Positions 36,457 through 56,266 of a DNA stretch of 64,000 nucleotides are shown here, piece by piece (within the stretch, counting starts at the first letter, position 1; each line of letters opens with the position of its first letter). The translations under genes were made by a program, and so were the position numbers. The stretch covers positions 2,547,001-2,611,000 of the forward strand of contig NZ_JACXXJ020000005.1 in NCBI RefSeq assembly GCF_014926405.1, given 5' to 3'. This stretch comes from Agrobacterium vitis (GTDB taxonomy: Bacteria; Pseudomonadota; Alphaproteobacteria; Rhizobiales; Rhizobiaceae). The notes beneath the pieces are model-generated. The model worked only from the letters and a program-made list of their open reading frames with translations, did no database searches and was not told the origin of the DNA.

Positions 36457-36912
36457 TCAGGAGCCGCTCGAGAAGTTGACGCCGGTCTGCAACTCTACTG
36501 TGCCACCGCTGCTGGTGGTGAGTGTCACGGCGTCGTCGGCGACCTTGACGTTGGAGACAACACCGGTCGTTTCGCCGTCCGAGCTTGTCACCGTCTTGCC
36601 GACGATATCACCAGCCCGTGTCAAGGCTTCCGCCTGCAACATGCTGCGCAGCAAGGTATTGGTCTTAATGGATTGCTCGACCTGCGAATAGGTTGCAAGC
36701 TGAGACACTTGCTCCGTGGCAGACATCGGATCCGTCGGGTCCTGATTCTGCAACTGCGCGATCAGAAGCTGAAGGAAGCTGTTATAGTCCATGGATGCGT
36801 CTGCCGCATCCGAGTTGGCCGATGCGTTGGCGAACGGATTGGTATAAGTCGCCGAACTCGAAGAGGACGAGGAACTTGTTGATGTCGCTGAAGTCGTTGC
36901 GTCTACCGCCAT
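36457..36912 (-). CDS. flgD: Flagellar hook cap protein FlgD
   Basis: A protein of 151 residues, the scaffold that caps the growing hook. After a serine-rich N-terminus (about residues 7-22) the conserved segment [19 protein letters not shown] and the following [10 protein letters not shown] are diagnostic for FlgD. It is short, lacking most of the C-terminal Ig-like domains of enterobacterial FlgD, as usual in rhizobia. Its start overlaps the flbT 3' end by 10 bases. Confidence 0.93.
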
Positions 36913-37352
36913 GGCGCAATCTCCTTGCGGATCTGTTCGATCGTTGCCGGTGCCATTTCCTGGTTGTTCAGTATCCGATCTTCAAGCGGATAAAGACCGC
37001 GAATGGCCTTCAATGCATCGAAGGCGCGCCCTGATACGACCTGAGCGTCGATCCGCTTCAATTCAGCCAGGATCTCGTCATCCTGGAAGCAGGACAGCAA
37101 CATCACGATCGACTTGCGGAACATGGTCAGCGTCTGTTCCTTGCCTTCCGGATTGATGAGGATCATCTGGGCGATGAAATAGAGCTGGCGTAGCGGGGTA
37201 TTGGCGTCTTCCGGCTGGAGCACGTGGTTTTCCAGCAGAAATGTCACATCGTTCAAAAATTCCAGGGCAACCTTCCGATCGACGCGCAAAACGGCACCAT
37301 TGATAAAGATTCGTTCCCCGGATTTCAGCGAGATTCGCAAGGTGCTCTTCAT
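36903..37352 (-). CDS. flbT: Flagellin mRNA regulator FlbT
   Basis: A protein of 149 residues of the FlbT family. In Caulobacter, FlbT binds the 5' untranslated region of flagellin mRNA and limits its translation and stability until hook assembly is complete. The conserved start [20 protein letters not shown] and the segment [14 protein letters not shown] are present. It overlaps flaF upstream by 4 bases and flgD downstream by 10 bases. The five flagellin leaders in this window are natural candidate targets. Confidence 0.93.
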
Positions 37353-37696
37353 TTAAGTCCATCCCTGATGATGGTGGTTACATCGATTATGCCTTGGTAA
37401 TTGTCGGATTCCCGCTTTCTGATGCGGTCACATTCCTTCAATATCCAAAGGGCAATTGAAATGAGATTGGCTCGAAGTTCCGTGCCAAGCTGGTTGTCCG
37501 GCTGCTTGAGATCCTCAATGAAGCGGATCCAGACGCGGCGCGTATAGTAAAGAGCCTCAATGCCTTCACGACCGTATTTTCCGGCAGTCCTGGCCTGGCT
37601 CAGCAAGTCTATCGATCTGTCGAGAACCTGGCGCTCACGCTCCTTAGCGTCGGCAACCCCATCCTCCATAATCTCATTGTAGGAAAACTGGTACAT
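37349..37696 (-). CDS. flaF: Flagellar biosynthesis regulator FlaF
   Basis: A protein of 115 residues of the FlaF family, known as a positive regulator or secretion helper of flagellin that works opposite FlbT. The family pattern is a Y-rich N-terminus, then EREVLDRSI-type helices (here [14 protein letters not shown]), [19 protein letters not shown] and [13 protein letters not shown]. Its stop overlaps the flbT start (ATGA), so the two antagonists are made from one transcript. It follows flgL after 34 bases. Confidence 0.92.
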
Positions 37697-48480: not shown

Positions 48481-48849
48481 GTCATTTTCTCCCGGACCTT
48501 ACGGCCCTTATCGTCGAGACCGCGCCTATGGCGTTATCGACGCACAATACCTTCGGCCGGGTAAGGCCCAAAGCTTAAATCATCAACCTGATGCCCGGGA
48601 TCATTTTCAGGACCCTTTCAGGACATGCAGGATGTCACAGGCGGCCCGATCTCCCGCATGACGGCGAACACAAACACCTGTTTCATGATGTCGAAGCTAG
48701 GCGGCCAAACTTGCGCGAGGATTTTCTCAAGGCGGTCAGGCATGCCGATTGGCACTCACCCTACATAATTTAACGGGATTGGGCAGGTTTAGGACGAAAA
48801 TGCCCCGGCGGATTTTGCAGTCATATCGGCTGCATCCCCTGAAAATATG
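48481..48849. promoter_or_regulatory. Control region of the FliH-like/mot operon
   Basis: About 370 bases without a convincing gene on either strand; the short frames lack protein-like composition. One TTTAAC motif occurs near 48768. It likely contains the promoter of the mot operon on the minus strand. Confidence 0.45.
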
Positions 48850-48881
48850 TTGGACCGCGCCAGGGCAGTTGCGCGGTCCAA
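48850..48881 (-). terminator. Terminator of flagellin gene 1
   Basis: TTGGACCGCGC (48850-48860) and GCGCGGTCCAA (48871-48881) form a perfect 11-bp stem with a 10-base loop; CATATTTTC follows on the minus strand. It lies 75 bases after the flagellin stop. Confidence 0.75.
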
Positions 48882-48955
48882 CGATTCCACCAGATGCCGA
48901 TGACCGGCGGCACGGCAGAAAGGGAAAATTGTAACTCCGGCCCGTTGTCGAAAAA

Positions 48956-49918
48956 CTACTTGAAGAGCGTCAGGATGTTTTCGGCATTGGTATTGGCAAT
49001 CGACAGCGCCTGGATGCCAAGTTGCTGCTGCGTTTGCAGCGCCTTGATCTTGGTTGACTCCTCGTTCATATCCGCATCCACCAGACGTCCGACGCCCTTG
49101 TCGATCGTATCGCTGAGGTTTTTAACGAACGTATCCTGGGAATCGATACGGCTGCTGATCGCACCCAAGGTCGAAGCAGAATCGGTCAGATCCTGAAGCA
49201 TTTTATCGACGGCTGAAATCATGCCATCGAGATCGTCATTGGACATGTCGGTGGTCAGGGTGATTTCTGTGCCGGTGGCAGGCGTCGTCGACTCCGCATC
49301 CAGCAGGTAATAGGTGCCTGTCGTGGTGGTCGTACCGTAAGCCCAGGTTGCAACCGTGGTGCGTGTCAGGATGCCGTTTTCAGCATTCTGGGTATCGATC
49401 AGCGTCGATTCCGACGTGTTGAACTTCAAAGTGGTGACCGACACTGTACCGTCGCTGGCGCGGTTAAAGGAGGCAACCATTTCCTTGGTGGTGGGAGGAT
49501 TGGTCGATTCGTTGTACAACCAGTTTTCGCCGGAGAATGAAGCGGATTCGGCAATGGAGGCGAGCTGGTTCTTCAGCTCGTTGATTTCCTGGTTGATCTT
49601 GTCCTTGTCCACGCCCGGTTCACGCGCCGCAACCAATTTGGACTTGATCGAACTGAGCACGTCAATACTGGAGTCCAGACCTGTATAAGCGGTATCTGCT
49701 TTTGAAGCAGCAAGCCCCAGAGCATCCTGAACCGTGGAAAGCGCCTTGTTATCGGAGCGCATCGTGGTCGCAATCGACCAATAGGCGGCATTGTCTTTGG
49801 CGCTGTCGACTTTATAGCCGGACGAGATTCTGTTCTGCGTCGTCTCCATGTTCTGGTCGATGCCACGGAGAGTCTGCAGAGCCGCCATAGCGGAGGTATT
49901 GGTCATAATGCTGGTCAT
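48956..49918 (-). CDS. Flagellin (copy 1, most divergent)
   Basis: A 320-residue filament subunit. The N-terminal coiled coil (MTSIMTNTSAMAALQTLRGI, then RISSGYKVDSAKDNAAYWSI) and the C-terminal helix ending IKALQTQQQLGIQALSIAN are standard for rhizobial flagellins. Its central region (about residues 140-230) differs clearly from the other four copies, which share theirs almost exactly. The ATG at 49918 lies 4 bases after GGGGCA in the conserved leader; an upstream in-frame ATG at 49930 would fall within that leader. It is the last of five tandem genes. Confidence 0.95.
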   Translation of the reverse strand: MTSIMTNTSAMAALQTLRGIDQNMETTQNRISSGYKVDSAKDNAAYWSIATTMRSDNKALSTVQDALGLAASKADTAYTGLDSSIDVLSSIKSKLVAAREPGVDKDKINQEINELKNQLASIAESASFSGENWLYNESTNPPTTKEMVASFNRASDGTVSVTTLKFNTSESTLIDTQNAENGILTRTTVATWAYGTTTTTGTYYLLDAESTTPATGTEITLTTDMSNDDLDGMISAVDKMLQDLTDSASTLGAISSRIDSQDTFVKNLSDTIDKGVGRLVDADMNEESTKIKALQTQQQLGIQALSIANTNAENILTLFK

Positions 49919-49922
49919 AGAG

Positions 49923-49990
49923 TGCCCCATGAAGGTGAAGGGACATGCCGGATTTATGGAAGACACCGGCAACGCTGGTCTGCTTCATGC
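49923..49990 (-). promoter_or_regulatory. Flagellin leader RNA structure (copy 1)
   Basis: Read on the minus strand: GCATGAAGC (49990-49982), a TGCCGG/CCGGCA hairpin (49946-49951 with 49966-49971), TGTCCC (49945-49940), and GGGGCA (49928-49923) 4 bases before the ATG. TGTCCC can pair with GGGGCA over 6 bases including one G-U, hiding the ribosome-binding site. Confidence 0.6.
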
Positions 49991-50030
49991 ACGTCGGCTA
50001 CGCTCTTGCCCTGGTAGCCAACCCAACGTT

Positions 50031-50073
50031 GTTAACAGATTATTAACCCTGAATTAGTTAACAAATGGTTAAC
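50031..50073. promoter_or_regulatory. Phased TTAAC repeats upstream of flagellin 1
   Basis: Four TTAAC motifs begin at 50032, 50043, 50058 and 50069, with spacings of 11, 15 and 11 bases. They form two similar units (GTTAACAnnnnnTTAAC). This is the pattern expected for tandem half-sites of an OmpR-type regulator. Confidence 0.5.
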
Positions 50074-50143
50074 GGGGTTATCAAAGTTTTAATAGGTCTA
50101 AACGAATTCCTAATTTTTTCAAGACCAAAGAAAAGCAGGCATG

Positions 50144-50169
50144 AAAAAAGCCGCAGCGGGTGCTGCGGC
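50144..50169 (-). terminator. Terminator downstream of flagellin gene 2
   Basis: GCCGCAGC (50150-50157) and GCTGCGGC (50162-50169) form a perfect 8-bp stem with a 4-base loop and are followed on the minus strand by six T residues (50149-50144). It lies about 155 bases after the stop codon of flagellin 2, leaving an unusually long 3' region. Confidence 0.9.
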
Positions 50170-50255
50170 TTTGATAAACATCGTGGATCCAACACATCGG
50201 GCAAGGACCATTCCTGGCCTCCCAACGGTAGTCGTCTCTGGCTTTGTGAACCCTA

Positions 50256-50282
50256 CAAGCCATTGTTGTGGCTTGTTTTTTT
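50256..50282 (+). terminator. Plus-strand terminator-like hairpin after flagellin 2
   Basis: CAAGCCA (50256-50262) and TGGCTTG (50269-50275) form a perfect 7-bp stem followed by seven T residues on the plus strand. No plus-strand gene is known here. It could terminate an antisense RNA or simply be a stem in the flagellin 3' region. Confidence 0.55.
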
Positions 50283-50323
50283 CATTTTCAGGAGAAAGGC
50301 GTAAACGCCTTCGAACCCTCGTC

Positions 50324-51286
50324 TTATTTGAACAACGACAGAATGCTTTCGGAATTGGAATTGGCAATCGACAGAGACTGGATACCCAGTTGCTGCTGCG
50401 TCTGCAACGCCTTCAGCTTGGTCGATTCCTCGTTCATGTCCGCATCCACCAGACGGCCCACACCTGTGTCGATCGTGTCGCTCAGGTCCTTGATGAAGCT
50501 GTCCTGCAACTTCAGGCGTGATGTGGTCGCACCGATGGTGGAGGCAGCATCGGTCATGTTGGACAGCATCTTATCGACGGCTGAGACCATGCCGTCAATC
50601 TCGTCGTCGCTGGTCGTCGAGGTCAGCGTCACTTCGCTCGCACTACTGGTATTACCCCCGACAGAGGAAATCAGGTAATAGGATGCCGTCGTCGTCGTTG
50701 TACCATAGGCATAGGTTGCGACGGTTCCCTTTGTCAGAAGACCGCCGTCACCCGCCTCGTCATTGATCAGGATCGAGTTGGTCGTATCGAAGGAGATCGT
50801 CTTGATCGAGACATTGCCATCATTCCCACGAACGAAGGAGCCAACCATTTCCTGGGTCGTGCCTTCGGCTTCGCTGTTGTCATACAGCCAGTTCTCACCG
50901 TTAAACGACGCGGACTTGGCAACAGAACTCAGCTGGTTCTTCAGCTCAACCAGCTCCTTGTTGATCTTTTCCTTGTCCACGCCCGGTTCGCGGGCAGCAA
51001 CCAGCTTGGCCTTGATGTCGGTAACCACATCGATCGCCGATTTCATGCCGGTATAGGCCGTATCCGTCTTGGCGGAACCAAGGCCGATGGCATCCTCAAC
51101 GGCACCGAGCGCCTTGTTGTCCGAGCGCATCGTCGTGGCAATCGACCAATAGGCAGCATTATCGGATGCATTCTCAACCTTGTAGCCGGACGAAATCCTG
51201 TTCTGTGTCGAATTCATATCGTCGGAAATCGACCGCAGGGTCGAAAGTGCTGAAATTGCAGCGGTATTTGTCATCAAGCTCGTCAT
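50324..51286 (-). CDS. Flagellin (copy 2)
   Basis: A 320-residue filament subunit exported by the flagellar type III system without a cleaved signal. It begins MTSLMTNTAAISALSTLRSI and has RISSGYKVENASDNAAYWSI, the conserved flagellin N-domain. The C-terminal domain ends KLKALQTQQQLGIQSLSIAN. Its central region from about residue 140 to 240 is nearly identical to copies 3 to 5. It has its own leader and terminator, so each flagellin gene appears to be a separate transcript. Confidence 0.95.
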   Translation of the reverse strand: MTSLMTNTAAISALSTLRSISDDMNSTQNRISSGYKVENASDNAAYWSIATTMRSDNKALGAVEDAIGLGSAKTDTAYTGMKSAIDVVTDIKAKLVAAREPGVDKEKINKELVELKNQLSSVAKSASFNGENWLYDNSEAEGTTQEMVGSFVRGNDGNVSIKTISFDTTNSILINDEAGDGGLLTKGTVATYAYGTTTTTASYYLISSVGGNTSSASEVTLTSTTSDDEIDGMVSAVDKMLSNMTDAASTIGATTSRLKLQDSFIKDLSDTIDTGVGRLVDADMNEESTKLKALQTQQQLGIQSLSIANSNSESILSLFK

Positions 51287-51291
51287 AAAAG

Positions 51292-51362
51292 TGCCCCTTG
51301 AGGTGATTGTTTTGGAAAGGGACAGACCGGATTTAGACCGGTAACATTGGTCGGCTTCATGC
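51292..51362 (-). promoter_or_regulatory. Flagellin leader RNA structure (copy 2)
   Basis: On the minus strand: GCATGAAGC (51362-51354), an ACCGG/CCGGT hairpin (51326-51330 with 51338-51342), TGTCCCTT (51324-51317) and AAGGGGCA (51299-51292), 5 bases before the ATG. The last two can form an 8-bp helix with one G-U. Confidence 0.62.
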
Positions 51363-51641
51363 CCGCCGGATCTCTATCTGCTCGTCCGGCCCAGTGCTTT
51401 CGTGAACACAGAAAACACCAGCATGGTTAACGAAACATAAATTTGAAAAAATATTAACCATACAACGAGGATGCATGCAGGCTTGCGCCTTCCATTCCCA
51501 TCATAGGGAAATTTAATTTTTCTTATTTATCAACCACTTGAAATACCGTTTGGATTATTCCCACGACGAACGAAACTTCGCCATTCCCTGAACCAGCACA
51601 ATCGATAAGACGTCCGCCAAGGCGCTTTTTGCTAACAAGAT
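51363..51641. other. Spacer upstream of flagellin 2
   Basis: Non-coding and AT-rich. TTAAC occurs at 51428-51432 and 51455-51459 (27 bases apart), and probably marks the promoter region of flagellin 2. Confidence 0.45.
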
Positions 51642-51670
51642 AAAAAAATAGCCGGGCTTTCGCCCGGCTA
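51642..51670 (-). terminator. Terminator of flagellin gene 3
   Basis: TAGCCGGGC (51649-51657) and GCCCGGCTA (51662-51670) form a perfect 9-bp stem with a 4-base loop; seven T residues follow on the minus strand. It lies 30 bases after the stop codon. Confidence 0.93.
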
Positions 51671-51700
51671 TGCATTTGGTGATTCTCGATGCCCTTAGGC

Positions 51701-52663
51701 TTAACGGAACAGCGACAGCACGTTTTCGGAGCTGGAGTTGGCGATCGACAGAGACTGGATACCCAGCTGCTGCTGTGTCTGCAACGCCTTCAGCTTGGTC
51801 GATTCCTCGTTCATGTCCGCATCTACCAGACGGCCCACACCCGTGTCGATCGTGTCGCTCAGGTCCTTGATGAAGCTATCCTGCAACTTCAGACGTGATG
51901 TGGTCGCACCGATGGTGGCAGCCGCATCCGTCATGCTGGTCAGCATCTTGTCAACCGAGGCAACCATGCCATCGATCTCATCATCGCTGGTCGTCGAGGT
52001 CAGCGTCACTTCGCTCGCACTACTGGTATTACCCCCGACAGAGGAAATCAGGTAATAGGATGCCGTCGTCGTCGTTGTACCATAGGCATAGGTTGCGATG
52101 GTTCCCTTTGTCAGAAGACCGCCGTCACCCGCCTCGTCATTGATCAGGATCGAGTTGGTCGTATCGAAGGAGATCGTCTTGATCGAGACATTGCCATCAT
52201 TCCCACGAACGAAGGAGCCAACCATTTCCTGGGTCGTGCCTTCGGCTTCGCTGTTGTCATACAGCCAGTTCTCGCCGTTAAACGACGCGGACTTGGCAAC
52301 AGAGCCCAGCTGGTTCTTCAGCTCGGTCAGTTCCTTGTTGATCTTGTCCTTGTCCACGCCCGGTTCGCGGGCGGCAACCAGCTTGGCCTTGATATCGGAG
52401 ACGACACTGATTGCCGATTCCATGCCGGTATAGGCCGTGTCTGTCTTGGCTGCACCAAGGCCGATGGCGTCTTCAACGGCACCGAGCGCCTTGTTGTCCG
52501 AGCGCATCGTCGTGGCAATCGACCAATAGGCCGCATTGTCCGACGCGCTCTCGACCTTGTAACCGGACGAAATCCGGCTCTGGGTGGTCTCCATATCGGA
52601 GCTGATCGACCGCAGCGTGGAAAGTGCTGAAATCGCAGCAGTGTTCGTCATAATACTCGTCAT
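51701..52663 (-). CDS. Flagellin (copy 3)
   Basis: A 320-residue flagellin, nearly identical to copy 4 over the whole length and to copies 2 and 5 in the middle. The N-domain reads MTSIMTNTAAISALSTLRSI and RISSGYKVESASDNAAYWSI; the C-domain contains LKLQDSFIKDLSDTIDTGVG. A few substitutions separate it from copy 4 (for example DKDKINKELTELKNQLGSV versus DKEKINKELAELKNQLSSV). It carries its own leader and a strong terminator. Confidence 0.95.
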   Translation of the reverse strand: MTSIMTNTAAISALSTLRSISSDMETTQSRISSGYKVESASDNAAYWSIATTMRSDNKALGAVEDAIGLGAAKTDTAYTGMESAISVVSDIKAKLVAAREPGVDKDKINKELTELKNQLGSVAKSASFNGENWLYDNSEAEGTTQEMVGSFVRGNDGNVSIKTISFDTTNSILINDEAGDGGLLTKGTIATYAYGTTTTTASYYLISSVGGNTSSASEVTLTSTTSDDEIDGMVASVDKMLTSMTDAAATIGATTSRLKLQDSFIKDLSDTIDTGVGRLVDADMNEESTKLKALQTQQQLGIQSLSIANSSSENVLSLFR

Positions 52664-52669
52664 AGGCGT

Positions 52670-52742
52670 TGCCCCTTATGGAACTGGAAACGGAAGGGAC
52701 ATCCCGGGCTCCTTCCCGGCGAACGACGGCTCCGCTTCATGC
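52670..52742 (-). promoter_or_regulatory. Flagellin leader RNA structure (copy 3)
   Basis: On the minus strand: GCATGAAGC (52742-52734), a CCGGG/CCCGG hairpin (52704-52708 with 52715-52719), TGTCCCTT (52701-52694) and AAGGGGCA (52677-52670), 6 bases before the ATG. The two last segments can form an 8-bp helix that covers the ribosome-binding site. Confidence 0.62.
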
Positions 52743-52990
52743 CATTAATCTTTTTAAACAAGAGATTAATCCGTCGTTTTGATGTTTTTATTTAAACCCA
52801 GTTAGGTTAATTCTTGCTAAATCAGGAGAGAAAATTATTCAAAAAATTTTATGAAATGGTGATTCGTTGATCGATAACGAGCAACTTGAGTTTTATTCAA
52901 AAGGATAACCAAGACCGAAGTCGTCATGTGCTCATATGATCGGAAACGGGTGCAGTCCAGAATTGTAGAACAGCACATTCCAGATACGAA

Positions 52991-53022
52991 AAACAAAATA
53001 GCCGGGCTCATCACCCGGCTAT
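52991..53022 (-). terminator. Terminator of flagellin gene 4
   Basis: ATAGCCGGG (52998-53006) and CCCGGCTAT (53014-53022) form a perfect 9-bp stem with a 7-base loop; TTTGTTT follows on the minus strand, 30 bases after the stop codon. It resembles the terminator of copy 3. Confidence 0.88.
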
Positions 53023-53051
53023 AGATGTTTCGATGCTGCGGAACTTGAATG

Positions 53052-54014
53052 CTAGCGGAACAGCGACATAACGTTTTCGGAGCTGGAGTTGGCGATCGAC
53101 AGAGACTGGATACCCAGCTGCTGCTGCGTCTGCAACGCCTTCAGCTTGGTCGATTCCTCGTTCATGTCCGCATCCACCAGACGGCCCACACCTGTGTCGA
53201 TCGTGTCGCTCAGGTCCTTGATGAAGCTATCCTGCAACTTCAGACGTGATGTGGTTGCACCGATGGTGGAGGCAGCATCCGTCATGCTGGTCAGCATCTT
53301 GTCAACCGAGGCAACCATGCCATCGATCTCATCATCGCTGGTCGTCGAGGTCAGCGTCACTTCGCTCGCACTACTGGTATTACCCCCGACAGAGGAAATC
53401 AGGTAATAGGATGCCGTCGTCGTCGTTGTACCATAGGCATAGGTTGCGACGGTTCCCTTTGTCAGAAGACCGCCGTCACCCGCCTCGTCATTGATCAGGA
53501 TCGAGTTGGTCGTATCGAAGGTGATCGTCTTGATCGAGACATTGCCATCATTCCCACGAACGAAGGAGCCAACCATTTCCTGGGTCGTGCCTTCGGCTTC
53601 GCTGTTGTCATACAGCCAGTTCTGACCGTTGAACGACGCGGACTTGGCAACAGAACTCAGCTGGTTCTTCAGCTCGGCCAGTTCCTTGTTGATCTTTTCC
53701 TTGTCCACGCCCGGTTCGCGAGCAGCAACCAGCTTGGCCTTGATATCGGAGACGACACTGATTGCCGATTCCATGCCGGTATAGGCCGTGTCTGTCTTGG
53801 CTGCACCAAGGCCGATGGCGTCCTCAACAGCACCGAGCGCTTTGTTGTCCGAGCGCATCGTCGTGGCAATCGACCAATAGGCCGCATTGTCCGACGCGCT
53901 CTCGACCTTGTAACCGGACGAAATCCGGCTCTGGGTGGTCTCCATATCGGAGCTGATCGACCGCAGCGTGGAAAGTGCTGAAATCGCAGCAGTGTTCGTC
54001 ATGATACTCGTCAT
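53052..54014 (-). CDS. Flagellin (copy 4)
   Basis: A 320-residue flagellin with MTSIMTNTAAISALSTLRSI at the start and the shared C-terminal LKALQTQQQLGIQSLSIANS. It differs from copy 3 at only a handful of residues. In the middle it shares a Thr in NVSIKTITFDTTN with copy 5, where copies 2 and 3 have Ser. This places a conversion-tract boundary between gene pairs. It has its own leader and terminator. Confidence 0.95.
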   Translation of the reverse strand: MTSIMTNTAAISALSTLRSISSDMETTQSRISSGYKVESASDNAAYWSIATTMRSDNKALGAVEDAIGLGAAKTDTAYTGMESAISVVSDIKAKLVAAREPGVDKEKINKELAELKNQLSSVAKSASFNGQNWLYDNSEAEGTTQEMVGSFVRGNDGNVSIKTITFDTTNSILINDEAGDGGLLTKGTVATYAYGTTTTTASYYLISSVGGNTSSASEVTLTSTTSDDEIDGMVASVDKMLTSMTDAASTIGATTSRLKLQDSFIKDLSDTIDTGVGRLVDADMNEESTKLKALQTQQQLGIQSLSIANSSSENVMSLFR

Positions 54015-54020
54015 AGGCCT

Positions 54021-54090
54021 TGCCCCTTGAATGACACATAGGAAGGGACATTCCGGGCTATTCCCCGGTGAAATTCGGCTCGCTTCATGC
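54021..54090 (-). promoter_or_regulatory. Flagellin leader RNA structure (copy 4)
   Basis: On the minus strand: GCATGAAGC (54090-54082), a CCGGG/CCCGG hairpin (54053-54057 with 54064-54068), TGTCCCTT (54050-54043) and AAGGGGCA (54028-54021), 6 bases before the ATG. An 8-bp helix between the last two is possible. TTAAC motifs lie directly upstream at 54093, 54104 and 54112. Confidence 0.62.
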
Positions 54091-54240
54091 GATTAACATT
54101 CAATTAACAGGTTAACCTGCCGATTTCGATAGCCCGTTTTAACTCAGACACAGTTAAAAATATCCTAACAGAGAATTACGTGATTAATTTATATAAAAAT
54201 ATCCATATTTTACTTGGTTAATACATTATTAAATTAATGA

Positions 54241-54274
54241 AAAATTAAAAAAGGCCGGACTGAATGCCCGGCCT
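54241..54274 (-). terminator. Terminator of flagellin gene 5
   Basis: GGCCGG (54254-54259) and CCGGCC (54269-54274) form a 6-bp stem with a 9-base loop, followed on the minus strand by TTTTTTAATTTTT. It lies 27 bases after the stop codon. Confidence 0.88.
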
Positions 54275-54301
54275 CTTCGTTTCGTATGCCTATGTCGGTT
54301 A

Positions 54302-55264
54302 TTAACGGAACAACGACAAAACATTCTCTGTGCTGGAATTAGCGATTGACAGCGCCTGGATGCCCAGCTGCTGCTGCGTTTGCAGCGCCTTCAGCTTGGT
54401 CGATTCCTCGTTCATGTCCGCATCCACGAGCTTGCCGATGCCGACATCGATCGTATCGCTGAGGTCTTTCGCAAAGCTGGACTGAGATTCGATCCGGCTC
54501 TTGGTCGCACCGATGGTGGCAGCAGCATCCGTCATGCTGGACAACATCTTGTCAACCGAGGCAACCATGCCATCGATCTCATCGTCACTGGTCGTCGAGG
54601 TCAGCGTCACTTCGCTCGCACTACCGGTATTACCGGCGACAGAGGAAATCAGGTAATAGGATGCCGTCGTCGTCGTTGTACCATAGGCATAGGTTGCGAC
54701 GGTTCCCTTTGTCAGAAGACCGCCGTCACCCGCCTCGTCATTGATCAGGATCGAGTTGGTCGTATCGAAGGTGATCGTCTTGATCGAGACATTGCCATCA
54801 TTCCCACGAACGAAGGAGCCAACCATTTCCTGGGTCGTGCCTTCGGCTTCGCTGTTGTCATACAGCCAGTTCTCGCCGTTAAACGACGCGGACTTGGCAA
54901 CAGAACTCAGCTGGTTCTTCAGCTCGGTCAGTTCCTTGTTGATCTTGTCCTTGTCCACGCCTGGTTCACGGGCGGCAACCAGCTTGGCCTTGATGTCAGA
55001 GACGACACCGATAGCGGCTTCCATGCCGGTATAGGCTGTATCCGTCTTGGCAGCGCCGACGCCGAGTGCGTCCTGCACGGCAGACATCGCCTTGTTATCG
55101 GAGCGCATGGTCGTGGCAATCGACCAGTAAGCCGCATTATCGGATGCGTCCTTGACCTTGTAGCCTGAAGAAATGGCGCTCTGCGTGGTTTCCATCTGCG
55201 AGCTGATAGTGCGCAGCGTGGAAAGTGCCGAAATGGCCGAATTGTTGGTCATGATGCTTGTCAT
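54302..55264 (-). CDS. Flagellin (copy 5, next to fliP)
   Basis: A 320-residue flagellin with the usual N-domain (MTSIMTNNSAISALSTLRTI, AISSGYKVKDASDNAAYWSI) and C-domain. Its ends differ from copies 2-4 (for example KSRIESQSSFAKDLSDTIDV), yet its central third is almost identical to copy 4. The ATG at 55264 is chosen because it follows the conserved leader; an in-frame ATG at 55294 lies upstream inside the leader. It is the first of the five tandem flagellin genes in transcription order. Confidence 0.95.
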   Translation of the reverse strand: MTSIMTNNSAISALSTLRTISSQMETTQSAISSGYKVKDASDNAAYWSIATTMRSDNKAMSAVQDALGVGAAKTDTAYTGMEAAIGVVSDIKAKLVAAREPGVDKDKINKELTELKNQLSSVAKSASFNGENWLYDNSEAEGTTQEMVGSFVRGNDGNVSIKTITFDTTNSILINDEAGDGGLLTKGTVATYAYGTTTTTASYYLISSVAGNTGSASEVTLTSTTSDDEIDGMVASVDKMLSSMTDAAATIGATKSRIESQSSFAKDLSDTIDVGIGKLVDADMNEESTKLKALQTQQQLGIQALSIANSSTENVLSLFR

Positions 55265-55270
55265 CAGATC

Positions 55271-55324
55271 TGTCCCTGTGGTTACACAATACAAAAGAGG
55301 GACATGCCGGACTATATACCGGCA
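55271..55324 (-). promoter_or_regulatory. Flagellin leader RNA structure (copy 5, compensatory variant)
   Basis: On the minus strand: a TGCCGG/CCGGCA hairpin (55305-55310 with 55319-55324), TGTCCCT (55304-55298) and AGGGACA (55277-55271), 6 bases before the ATG. Here the ribosome-binding segment has A where the other copies have G, turning the G-U pair into a Watson-Crick pair and keeping the 7-bp helix perfect. Confidence 0.62.
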
Positions 55325-55346
55325 GAAGCGATCGACATCATGTCAA

Positions 55347-55366
55347 TTAACTAGAGTTTGTTTAAC
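55347..55366. promoter_or_regulatory. TTAAC pair upstream of flagellin 5
   Basis: TTAAC at 55347-55351 and at 55362-55366, 15 bases apart, matching one of the spacings seen upstream of flagellin 1. It is a candidate regulator site just upstream of the leader. Confidence 0.4.
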
Positions 55367-55528
55367 TCGCCTCTAATCAGCACATAACCACGCACGGCTT
55401 TAAGGTTAGCTCAACAGGAGTGGTAAAAGAACCATTAACAACGCCAAAAACGCCCAGGATGGGGCGCAAGGCGCGAACACGCTGTTCTATGGTTTATAAA
55501 CCCTCTATTTCTAGGGGATGGTCTGGCT

Positions 55529-56266
55529 TCAGGAAAATGAGCGCACCAAACTACCGACCAGAAGGTTCCAGCCATCAATGAGCACGAAGAACAGGATCTT
55601 GAACGGCAGGGAAATCGACGTCGGCGGCAACATCATCATGCCCATGGCCATGGTGATGGTCGAGACGATCATGTCGATGACCAGAAAAGGCAGGATGATC
55701 AGGAAGCCGATTTCAAAGCCGCGCCGGATCTCTGACAGCATGAAAGCTGGGATCAATACCCGGTAATCGACCTTGCCTTCAACGACCGTCGTCTGCCCGC
55801 GCTCATTGGCCAGATCGATGAACAGCCGGAGGTCTTTCTCGCGGGTATTGTTGGACATGAAGCCCCGGAAAGGCTCCGCAATCCTGGGAACAGCCTCGGC
55901 CTCGGTAATCTGGTTGTCCAGAAGCGGGCGCACACCGTCACGCCAGGCCTGATCCATGACCGGCGTCATGACATAAAAGGTCATGAACAGGGCAAGACTG
56001 GTCAGGATCATGTTGGACGGCGTGCTGGATAGACCCATGCCGGAGCGCAGAATGGAAAACGCGATCACGAAGCGCGGAAAGCTCGTCACCATGATCAGGA
56101 TGCCGGGAGCAACCGAAAGAACTGTCAGTAGACCGAAGGTGCGGATAATCCAGGCCGCGACGGATCCGTCGACCGGCGCTGTCAGGAAGTTTGACGGAAG
56201 CTGCTGCGCCTGGGCAAGTTCCGGGGCCGCTATCATCGCGGCGATCAAGATAAGGGTTCGAATCAT
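55529..56266 (-). CDS. fliP: Flagellar export apparatus protein FliP
   Basis: A 245-residue inner-membrane protein of the export gate. It has a signal peptide (residues 1-20, ending AQA) and four membrane helices. The conserved block LSVAPGILIMVTSFPRFVIA and the C-terminal LPFKILFFVLIDGWNLLVGS are diagnostic. Its ATG overlaps the fliL stop by 4 bases. It is the last gene of the flgB-to-fliP series. Confidence 0.95.
   Translation of the reverse strand: MIRTLILIAAMIAAPELAQAQQLPSNFLTAPVDGSVAAWIIRTFGLLTVLSVAPGILIMVTSFPRFVIAFSILRSGMGLSSTPSNMILTSLALFMTFYVMTPVMDQAWRDGVRPLLDNQITEAEAVPRIAEPFRGFMSNNTREKDLRLFIDLANERGQTTVVEGKVDYRVLIPAFMLSEIRRGFEIGFLIILPFLVIDMIVSTITMAMGMMMLPPTSISLPFKILFFVLIDGWNLLVGSLVRSFS

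Follow-up and report, generated by a model that had tools for sequence, protein, structure and literature searches.

Five flagellin genes on the minus strand of an Agrobacterium vitis genome, at 48956-55264 of a 64,000-nucleotide stretch (the window; C5:2547001-2611000 in the numbering of genome G000), are each preceded by the same ordered leader, which raises the question of whether this leader acts as RNA in the control of flagellin production and what would read it. The genes flaF and flbT are present within the same flagellar cluster, and reviews call the action of FlbT on flagellin mRNA unclear, unresolved or unknown, as far as their accessible text goes. We propose that the leader is a cis-acting element of the flagellin mRNA, with FlbT of the type defined by the NCBIfam model NF001995 as its most likely reader, acting positively, and with its last helix, P4, as a lock on the ribosome-binding site (RBS). 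The probability that we assign to this reading is about 0.5.

The leader is composed, from 5' to 3', of P1, P2, a linker CCG..GU, P3, P4 and the ATG. P1 is an inverted repeat of variable sequence just 5' of P2, P2 is a three-pair stem enclosing an AUGAN loop, P3 is a CCGG hairpin, and in P4 the UGUCCC directly 3' of P3 pairs over a variable loop with GGGGCA or GGGACA. An earlier note on this DNA had described such an ordered leader on the minus strand before all five flagellins, which was confirmed, "all five" being valid for the window, as a protein search gave 7 flagellin matches genome-wide (5 in the window and 2 outside). The spacing of 4-6 nt that it had given between (AA)GGGGCA and the ATG was found in 5/5 copies with the GGGACA variant counted in, and the change in copy 5 that it had taken to restore perfect P4 pairing was also there, TGTCCCTC..CAGGGACA having U-A instead of the U-G of the other copies. 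The GCATGAAGC that it had placed before the CCGG hairpin in copies 1-4 was present and represents a small hairpin with the AUGAN loop; the feature is not limited to those copies, copy 5 having GACATGATGTC, a compensated stem with an A-U pair where the other copies have G-C. By start position of the copy, P1 has 9 pairs at 55264, 6 at 54014, 8 at 52663, 6 at 51286 and 9 at 49918, both 6-pair cases being weak. The pattern TGTCCCT-N8-30-GGGGCA occurred 4 times in the window, compared with a mean of 0.05 and a maximum of 1 in 100 shuffles. Furthermore, a covariance model (R1) built from 70 Rhizobiaceae leaders gave exactly five matches in the window, which were the five leaders, with 51-67 bits, the next best match having 11. 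The parts of the five copies are as follows.

55262..55346, minus strand: leader element P2-P3-P4 to ATG, copy 5 (flagellin start 55264), R1 61.4 bits
55348..55379, minus strand: P1 of copy 5, inverted repeat, 9 pairs including G-U (55371-55379 with 55348-55356)
55334..55344, minus strand: P2 of copy 5, GAC-AUGAU-GUC
55305..55324, minus strand: P3 of copy 5, UGCCGG..CCGGCA
55297..55304, minus strand: P4 5' arm of copy 5, UGUCCCUC
55271..55278, minus strand: P4 3' arm and RBS of copy 5, CAGGGACA, predicted pair probability 0.72-0.99
54012..54093, minus strand: leader element, copy 1 (flagellin start 54014), R1 51.1 bits
54092..54116, minus strand: P1 of copy 1, inverted repeat, 6 pairs, weak
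54081..54091, minus strand: P2 of copy 1, CGC-AUGAA-GCG
54053..54068, minus strand: P3 of copy 1, CCGGG..CCCGG
54043..54050, minus strand: P4 5' arm of copy 1, UGUCCCUU
54021..54028, minus strand: P4 3' arm and RBS of copy 1, AAGGGGCA, predicted pair probability 0.79-0.98
52661..52745, minus strand: leader element, copy 2 (flagellin start 52663), R1 58.4 bits
52744..52770, minus strand: P1 of copy 2, inverted repeat AUUAAUCU..AGAUUAAU, 8 pairs
52733..52743, minus strand: P2 of copy 2, inner two pairs standard, outer G-G
52704..52719, minus strand: P3 of copy 2, CCGGG..CCCGG
52694..52701, minus strand: P4 5' arm of copy 2, UGUCCCUU, predicted pair probability just 0.11-0.12
52670..52677, minus strand: P4 3' arm and RBS of copy 2, AAGGGGCA
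51284..51365, minus strand: leader element, copy 3 (flagellin start 51286), R1 66.5 bits
51353..51363, minus strand: P2 of copy 3, GGC-AUGAA-GCC
51326..51342, minus strand: P3 of copy 3, ACCGG..CCGGU
51317..51324, minus strand: P4 5' arm of copy 3, UGUCCCUU
51292..51299, minus strand: P4 3' arm and RBS of copy 3, AAGGGGCA, predicted pair probability 0.77-1.0
49916..49993, minus strand: leader element, copy 4 (flagellin start 49918), R1 60.8 bits
49993..50022, minus strand: P1 of copy 4, inverted repeat GUUGGCUAC..GUAGCCGAC, 9 pairs, last base at the edge of the model match
49981..49991, minus strand: P2 of copy 4, UGC-AUGAA-GCA
49946..49971, minus strand: P3 of copy 4, UGCCGG..CCGGCA, from sequence and absent from the minimum-energy fold
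49938..49945, minus strand: P4 5' arm of copy 4, UGUCCCUU, predicted pair probability 0.42-0.57
49923..49928, minus strand: P4 3' arm and RBS of copy 4, GGGGCA

To determine the conservation of the leader, named genomes were scanned, giving at least 73 loci (the best 80 of a longer list) plus 7 loci of the genome itself, in which 152 flagellin starts were found by an N-terminal pattern and 133 distinct leaders were long enough. TGTCCC was present in 109 of these 133 Rhizobiaceae leaders and [CT]AUGA.G, at the expected distance, in 131. An alignment with the structure set by hand, A1, consisted of 70 leaders of less than 80% identity drawn from the 131; because two loop-less leaders had been excluded, the invariance of the AUGA loop in A1 is partly by choice. 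In A1, two-sided changes were observed at 8/16 pairs. There were 48 such cells, whereas 500 shuffles gave 16.8 on average and never as many as 48, and shifting the partners by 1-3 columns decreased the paired cells from 88.8% to 35-46%. The linker CCG..GU was conserved and the fifth base of the P2 loop was free.

The element was also found across the order. Among 297 order genomes, R1 matched 77 at E≤0.1. At E≤0.04 it matched 70, and here the element precedes flagellins that belong to one subfamily. When 120 leaders were fetched by flagellin protein match (picked among the matches listed), which avoids a structure-based choice, AUGA was present 50-100 nt before the start in 103/120, a three-pair P2 in 91, a six-pair P4 in 70 and a P4 of at least 5 pairs in 80. 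A second alignment, A2, comprised 99 order-wide matches from 95 sources (92 of the 120 protein-fetched leaders and 3 older loci, excluding near-duplicates and leaders without a visible element) and had two-sided changes at 14/16 pairs, with 95 cells compared with 25.2 after shuffling, although this alignment was model-fitted and hence leans to the model. P1 had at least 6 pairs in 156/215 leaders, the shuffled mean being 52 and the maximum 62 (mononucleotide shuffles, relatives not thinned). In several families (L126-L146), P1 is immediately preceded by a ACGACAGGTT-like stretch, which lies about 20-60 bases 5' of P2 and downstream of a promoter-like GCAAG..CTAT and may mark the transcript start.

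For P4, 252 distinct leaders were considered, of which the 223 with AUGA and UG[UC] at the expected spacing were used and 29 were dropped. By an alignment-free comparison with the last 26 nt, 191/223 leaders could form 6/6 standard pairs and 212/223 at least 5/6. The P4 variants differ by family, with UGUCCC/GGGACA in many, UGUUCC/GGAACA in genomes G260 and G277, and both UGUCUUUC/GAAAGACG and UGUUUC/GAAAC in family f18; as judged from the printed leaders, P4 is changed as a unit. Among the 68 arms other than UGUCCC, 38 paired 6/6, compared with a mean of 28 and a maximum of 37 in 2000 rounds of swapped arms, a count barely beyond the swaps because G-U is permissive. The duplex energy of the same 68 leaders was on average -6.92 kcal/mol with their own arm, the best of 500 permutations being -6.01 kcal/mol. 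In f18, pairing with the own arm gave -9.3 for the UGUCUU regions (12) and -6.5 for the UGUUUC regions (5), compared with -5.2 and -4.7, respectively, when UGUCCC arms were used. In these comparisons, leaders of related genomes are non-independent events. A first count of G-U versus A-C gave 28:4 for P2, 167:66 for P4 and 35:63 for P3, but was partly built in because the motifs [CT]AUGA.G and UG[UC] had served to choose the rows; at free positions, P2 gave 22:4, three P4 pairs together 60:24 (31:10 when f18 was left out) and a half-free fourth 67:0. By eye, many P4 loops of GGGACA leaders (e.g., window 55279-55296) have a GUAU-like motif followed by GU, which is seemingly absent from GGGGCA leaders. 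Taken together, the comparison of leaders shows conservation of P2, P3 and P4, in sequence as well as in pairing, across many families of the order. Compensating changes accompany it, and the conserved part extends to the flagellin start codon.

With respect to the reader of the leader, FlbT (PF07378) was found in 210/297 order genomes, 133 of which have neither the FlbT type of the window nor the leader at E≤0.04. A search with the FlbT of the window was bimodal, giving 77 genomes at E≤5.5e-24 with at least 38% identity and then a gap to 1.9e-13 with at most 31%. The NCBIfam models split four tested FlbT proteins likewise, NF001995 (type I; window FlbT 166.3 bits, cut-off 125) being one group and NF009432 (P0121 181 bits, cut-off 153) the other. 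Type I FlbT was present in 69 of the 70 genomes with a leader at E≤0.04, the exception being G125, which is 86% complete and gave no FlbT match. Conversely, 8 of the 77 type I genomes had no leader match at E≤0.04; in six of them (five of f18 and one of f23) the fetched leaders show a diverged element by eye, that of G208 does not show one, and G132 was not fetched. The seven weaker R1 matches (E 0.044-0.098) were in genomes without type I, and we take them as chance. In 40 picked FlbT genes, the 20 near leader-bearing flagellins were type I and the other 20 type II, and in the four examined genomes with both types it is the type I copy that is near the leader-bearing flagellins. The co-occurrence shows a co-inherited system, not binding. 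A control of the leader by FlbT is plausible.

The part shared most widely is P2-P3, as far as can be read from the leaders. Weak R1 matches were found at a distance from the flagellins, which was 27-37 kb in several relatives and about 960 kb in the genome of the window. Among 20 such places that were fetched, ten had P2-linker-P3 without P4 (L150-L156, L158, L159 and L163), and L160 and L161 (family f2) had P2, P3 and AAGGGGC 5' of the start of a methyl-accepting chemotaxis protein (MCP); six of the 20 precede flagellins, and L162 and L169 had no nameable gene. The three genes tested with Pfam were chemoreceptors, with protoglobin-MCP in L159 and L163 and HAMP-MCP in L160. P2 and P3 without P4 before chemoreceptor genes and some flagellins make P4 look like a separable module and suggest that P2-P3 is an address and P4 a brake.

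Several results weigh against the proposed reading. Regarding the structure, RNAalifold on A1, unguided, predicted the inner P2 and P3 pairs only, and P3 showed no G-U excess over A-C (35:63; inner pairs 2:2, outer 33:61). Under a tree-based null with a sequence-only alignment (177 rows, 81 columns, 3003 pairs), 5 of the 6 top-scoring pairs were in P2, P3 or P4, one (50,72) being a P4 register neighbour; however, none of the 3003 pairs was significant at a one-set E of 0.05, and only when the test was limited to the 16 proposed pairs did five reach 0.003-0.019. No exact P4 pair passed, the f18 arms being out of register in that alignment. The covariation in wider alignments, the lack of which would have refuted the earlier note, was supported by the compensating changes in A1 and A2 and by the P4 energies, within the limits set by this null. 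Conserved pairing with compensatory change that includes the RBS helix, as in a structured cis-regulatory RNA, was found, except that the exact P4 pairs fail the tree-based test.

Regarding the lock, the UGUUCC groups bind UGUCCC arms better than their own (-9.1 vs -7.9 in 14 Rhizobiaceae and -9.8 vs -7.6 in 2 others), which speaks against compensation, flagellins of genus g11 (L301-L305, perhaps Ensifer, in the family of the window) keep P2 and P3 without P4, and the leaders of globin-type MCPs are without P4. When the window copies were folded, P4 was near certain in three, about half in the copy at 49918, and 0.12 in that at 52663, where it is not the favoured fold. The mean predicted accessibility of the RBS region was 0.40 for the 5 flagellins and 0.42 for 21 other genes of the window; the RBS was thus not less accessible than that of other genes in this folding, which, being ordinary, is no proof of occlusion. 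Of the earlier suggestion that the leader closes over the RBS, what stands is that the conserved last helix includes the RBS region. Regarding FlbT, the flagellin subfamily coincides with the leader just as often (69/70), and co-occurrence cannot single out FlbT because FlbT type, flagellin subfamily and leader are co-inherited.

As for the sign of control, according to the accessible parts of the literature FlbT represses in Caulobacter, where the flagellin FljJ is its partner, and activates flagellin in Brucella; they also list flbT among the genes found in a non-motile A. fabrum screen and report a Phaeobacter flbT mutant as still motile. It is a further point against our reading that the A. 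fabrum hits are, in the same accessible text, transposon insertions, which could be polar. Since FlbT is described as a repressor in Caulobacter but as necessary for motility or flagellin in Brucella and A. fabrum, its sign here could be a different one, and by analogy we lean to type I FlbT acting positively in this branch. Five N-terminal strands are predicted in FlbT, a part barely covered by the structure comparisons. A homology of FlbT to CsrA at the sequence level was rejected, as hhalign probabilities of 2.9 and 1.3 gave no convincing relation; CsrA was not in the structure-comparison lists, which shows nothing.

In the mechanism that we propose, the leader would be transcribed whole, P1-P3 would serve as a platform read by a protein, and P4 (UGUCCC with GGGRCA) could hold the RBS closed. 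The type I FlbT of the same locus would bind the P2-linker-P3 module and, when bound, let P4 open or stop it from closing, so that flagellin would be made only once the FlbT/FlaF system signals that subunits are usable. A wider form of this proposal, which we regard as tentative, is that P2-linker-P3 is the address of an RNA-binding FlbT subfamily (NF001995) with an order-wide regulon of flagellins and chemoreceptors, in which an N-terminal beta domain would be for RNA and a FliS-like C-terminal helical bundle would sense unsecreted flagellin, free flagellin setting P4 open or closed.

A reading that needs no dedicated protein, doubtful in our judgment but to be taken seriously, is that the leader stabilises the mRNA at its 5' end and tunes translation, P1-P3 blocking decay and P4 fixing the initiation rate. 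The position of P1-P3 far 5' in the leader, the retention of P2-P3 where P4 is lost and the ordinary RBS accessibility agree with it, whereas the conserved unpaired letters (AUGA in the 103/120 leaders and the linker in A1) resemble protein contacts, and a fixed loop, which a plain stabiliser does not need, counts against it. It is unlikely, in our estimation, that FlbT is irrelevant and that another trans factor (a small RNA, Hfq or another RNA-binding protein) or temperature reads the leader; the 133 genomes that have FlbT without type I and leader would fit this, but the leader goes along with a single flagellar system and the FlbT type of that system, and Rfam 15 gave no family at the gathering score in the window.

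The repeats could also act as DNA, being promoter parts or binding sites of transcription factors such as CtrA or Rem, with RNA pairing being incidental. GCATGATGC is indeed a DNA palindrome, and CtrA sites are reported upstream of S. meliloti fla genes in a source accessible in part; nevertheless, we consider this improbable, as the excess of G-U over A-C at freely varying P2 and P4 pairs is not favoured by DNA repeats, the fifth P2 loop base is free, and P4 extends to the start codon and compensates in f18. We give hardly any credence to a leader peptide that starts at the AUG of the P2 loop and controls P4 by its translation. In three copies (54014, 52663 and 51286) the frame runs on to a stop that overlaps the start of the flagellin, but the distance to the start falls into each of the three frames (65, 76 and 82 of 223 leaders) and an in-frame stop is present in 123/223 leaders, by which such an upstream reading frame is disfavoured.

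Among known systems, RF01736 (flg-Rhizobiales) resembles the leader, as proposed here, in being a cis-regulatory RNA of flagellar genes in the same order with several hairpins. Membership in that family was rejected, as there were 0 window matches at its gathering score of 55 and it was absent from the 18 matches at E≤10 in 48700-55600; none was found in 21 genomes at E≤0.001. Its members are 5' of a FlgF-like gene in the 10 loci read (gene named from sequence), whereas the present element precedes flagellins, and they have UUGGGAGA hairpin loops, unlike the present leader. These loops resemble CsrA sites. RF01736 RNAs were seen at L081-L088, around 1501-1660, with 0/18 matching genomes in the family of the window, and the RF01736 genomes G047 and G155 carry both FlbT types. 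The FlbT-bound 5' untranslated region of Caulobacter fljK is likewise that of a flagellin and shares with our proposal a post-transcriptional control with flbT and flaF as partners, according to the accessible part of the literature, in which FlbT is described as a repressor there. Outside the order, no match preceding a flagellin emerged, the fljK leader itself not being part of the comparison; in 240 genomes of the class, R1 matched 12 at E≤0.05, one being the window's own; the longest nearby frame, inspected once for each of the other 11, was in no case a flagellin, and six shared one coding sequence. A plasmid search with one leader as query gave no match. Flagellin translation is governed through the mRNA leader also in the CsrA-FliW-flagellin system, and an analogy of CsrA-FliW to FlbT/FlaF is drawn in the accessible part of PMC4894983. 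A full-text literature search, for which subscription papers were mostly out of reach, found no paper on such a flagellin leader RNA.

The genes of the locus to which the leaders belong are as follows, the presence of flbT and flaF in the flagellin locus having been pointed out earlier and now being borne out by Pfam.

54302..55264, minus strand: flagellin gene with leader copy 5
53052..54014, minus strand: flagellin gene with leader copy 1
51701..52663, minus strand: flagellin gene with leader copy 2 (PF00669, PF00700)
50324..51286, minus strand: flagellin gene with leader copy 3
48956..49918, minus strand: flagellin gene with leader copy 4
36903..37352, minus strand: flbT (PF07378, 145.8 bits), NF001995 type, candidate ligand of the leader
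37349..37696, minus strand: flaF (PF07309, 116.9 bits), overlapping the flbT start

The four-base overlap of flaF and flbT (window 37349-37352) suggests translational coupling. One flagellin of the window is 98% identical to a flagellin of A. vitis CG78. The two flagellins outside the window (C5:2277035-2277991 and C5:667859-668812; L006 and L007) are without the leader, with no model match at E≤10; these extra flagellin-like genes have 45% identity. In window 50324-55264, the middles of four flagellin genes are near-identical over long stretches and the leaders divergent, which resembles gene conversion. Of 11 terminator-like sites, three come after flagellin stop codons, and these hairpins 3' of three flagellin genes suggest separate transcripts; none of the 11 falls in any leader, by which a transcription terminator inside the leader was rejected. 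A scan for sigma-70-like promoters gave 2 sites, compared with 5.2 expected, and was uninformative.

This leader is a candidate for a new Rfam family and, as a defined covarying RNA with a conserved loop and linker, offers something concrete for binding, probing and mutation studies. With it, a likely address module can be told apart from an RBS lock, and chemoreceptor genes are predicted to be further targets; it also suggests a reason why one FlbT type accompanies it. The cell probably uses the leader to time flagellin production.

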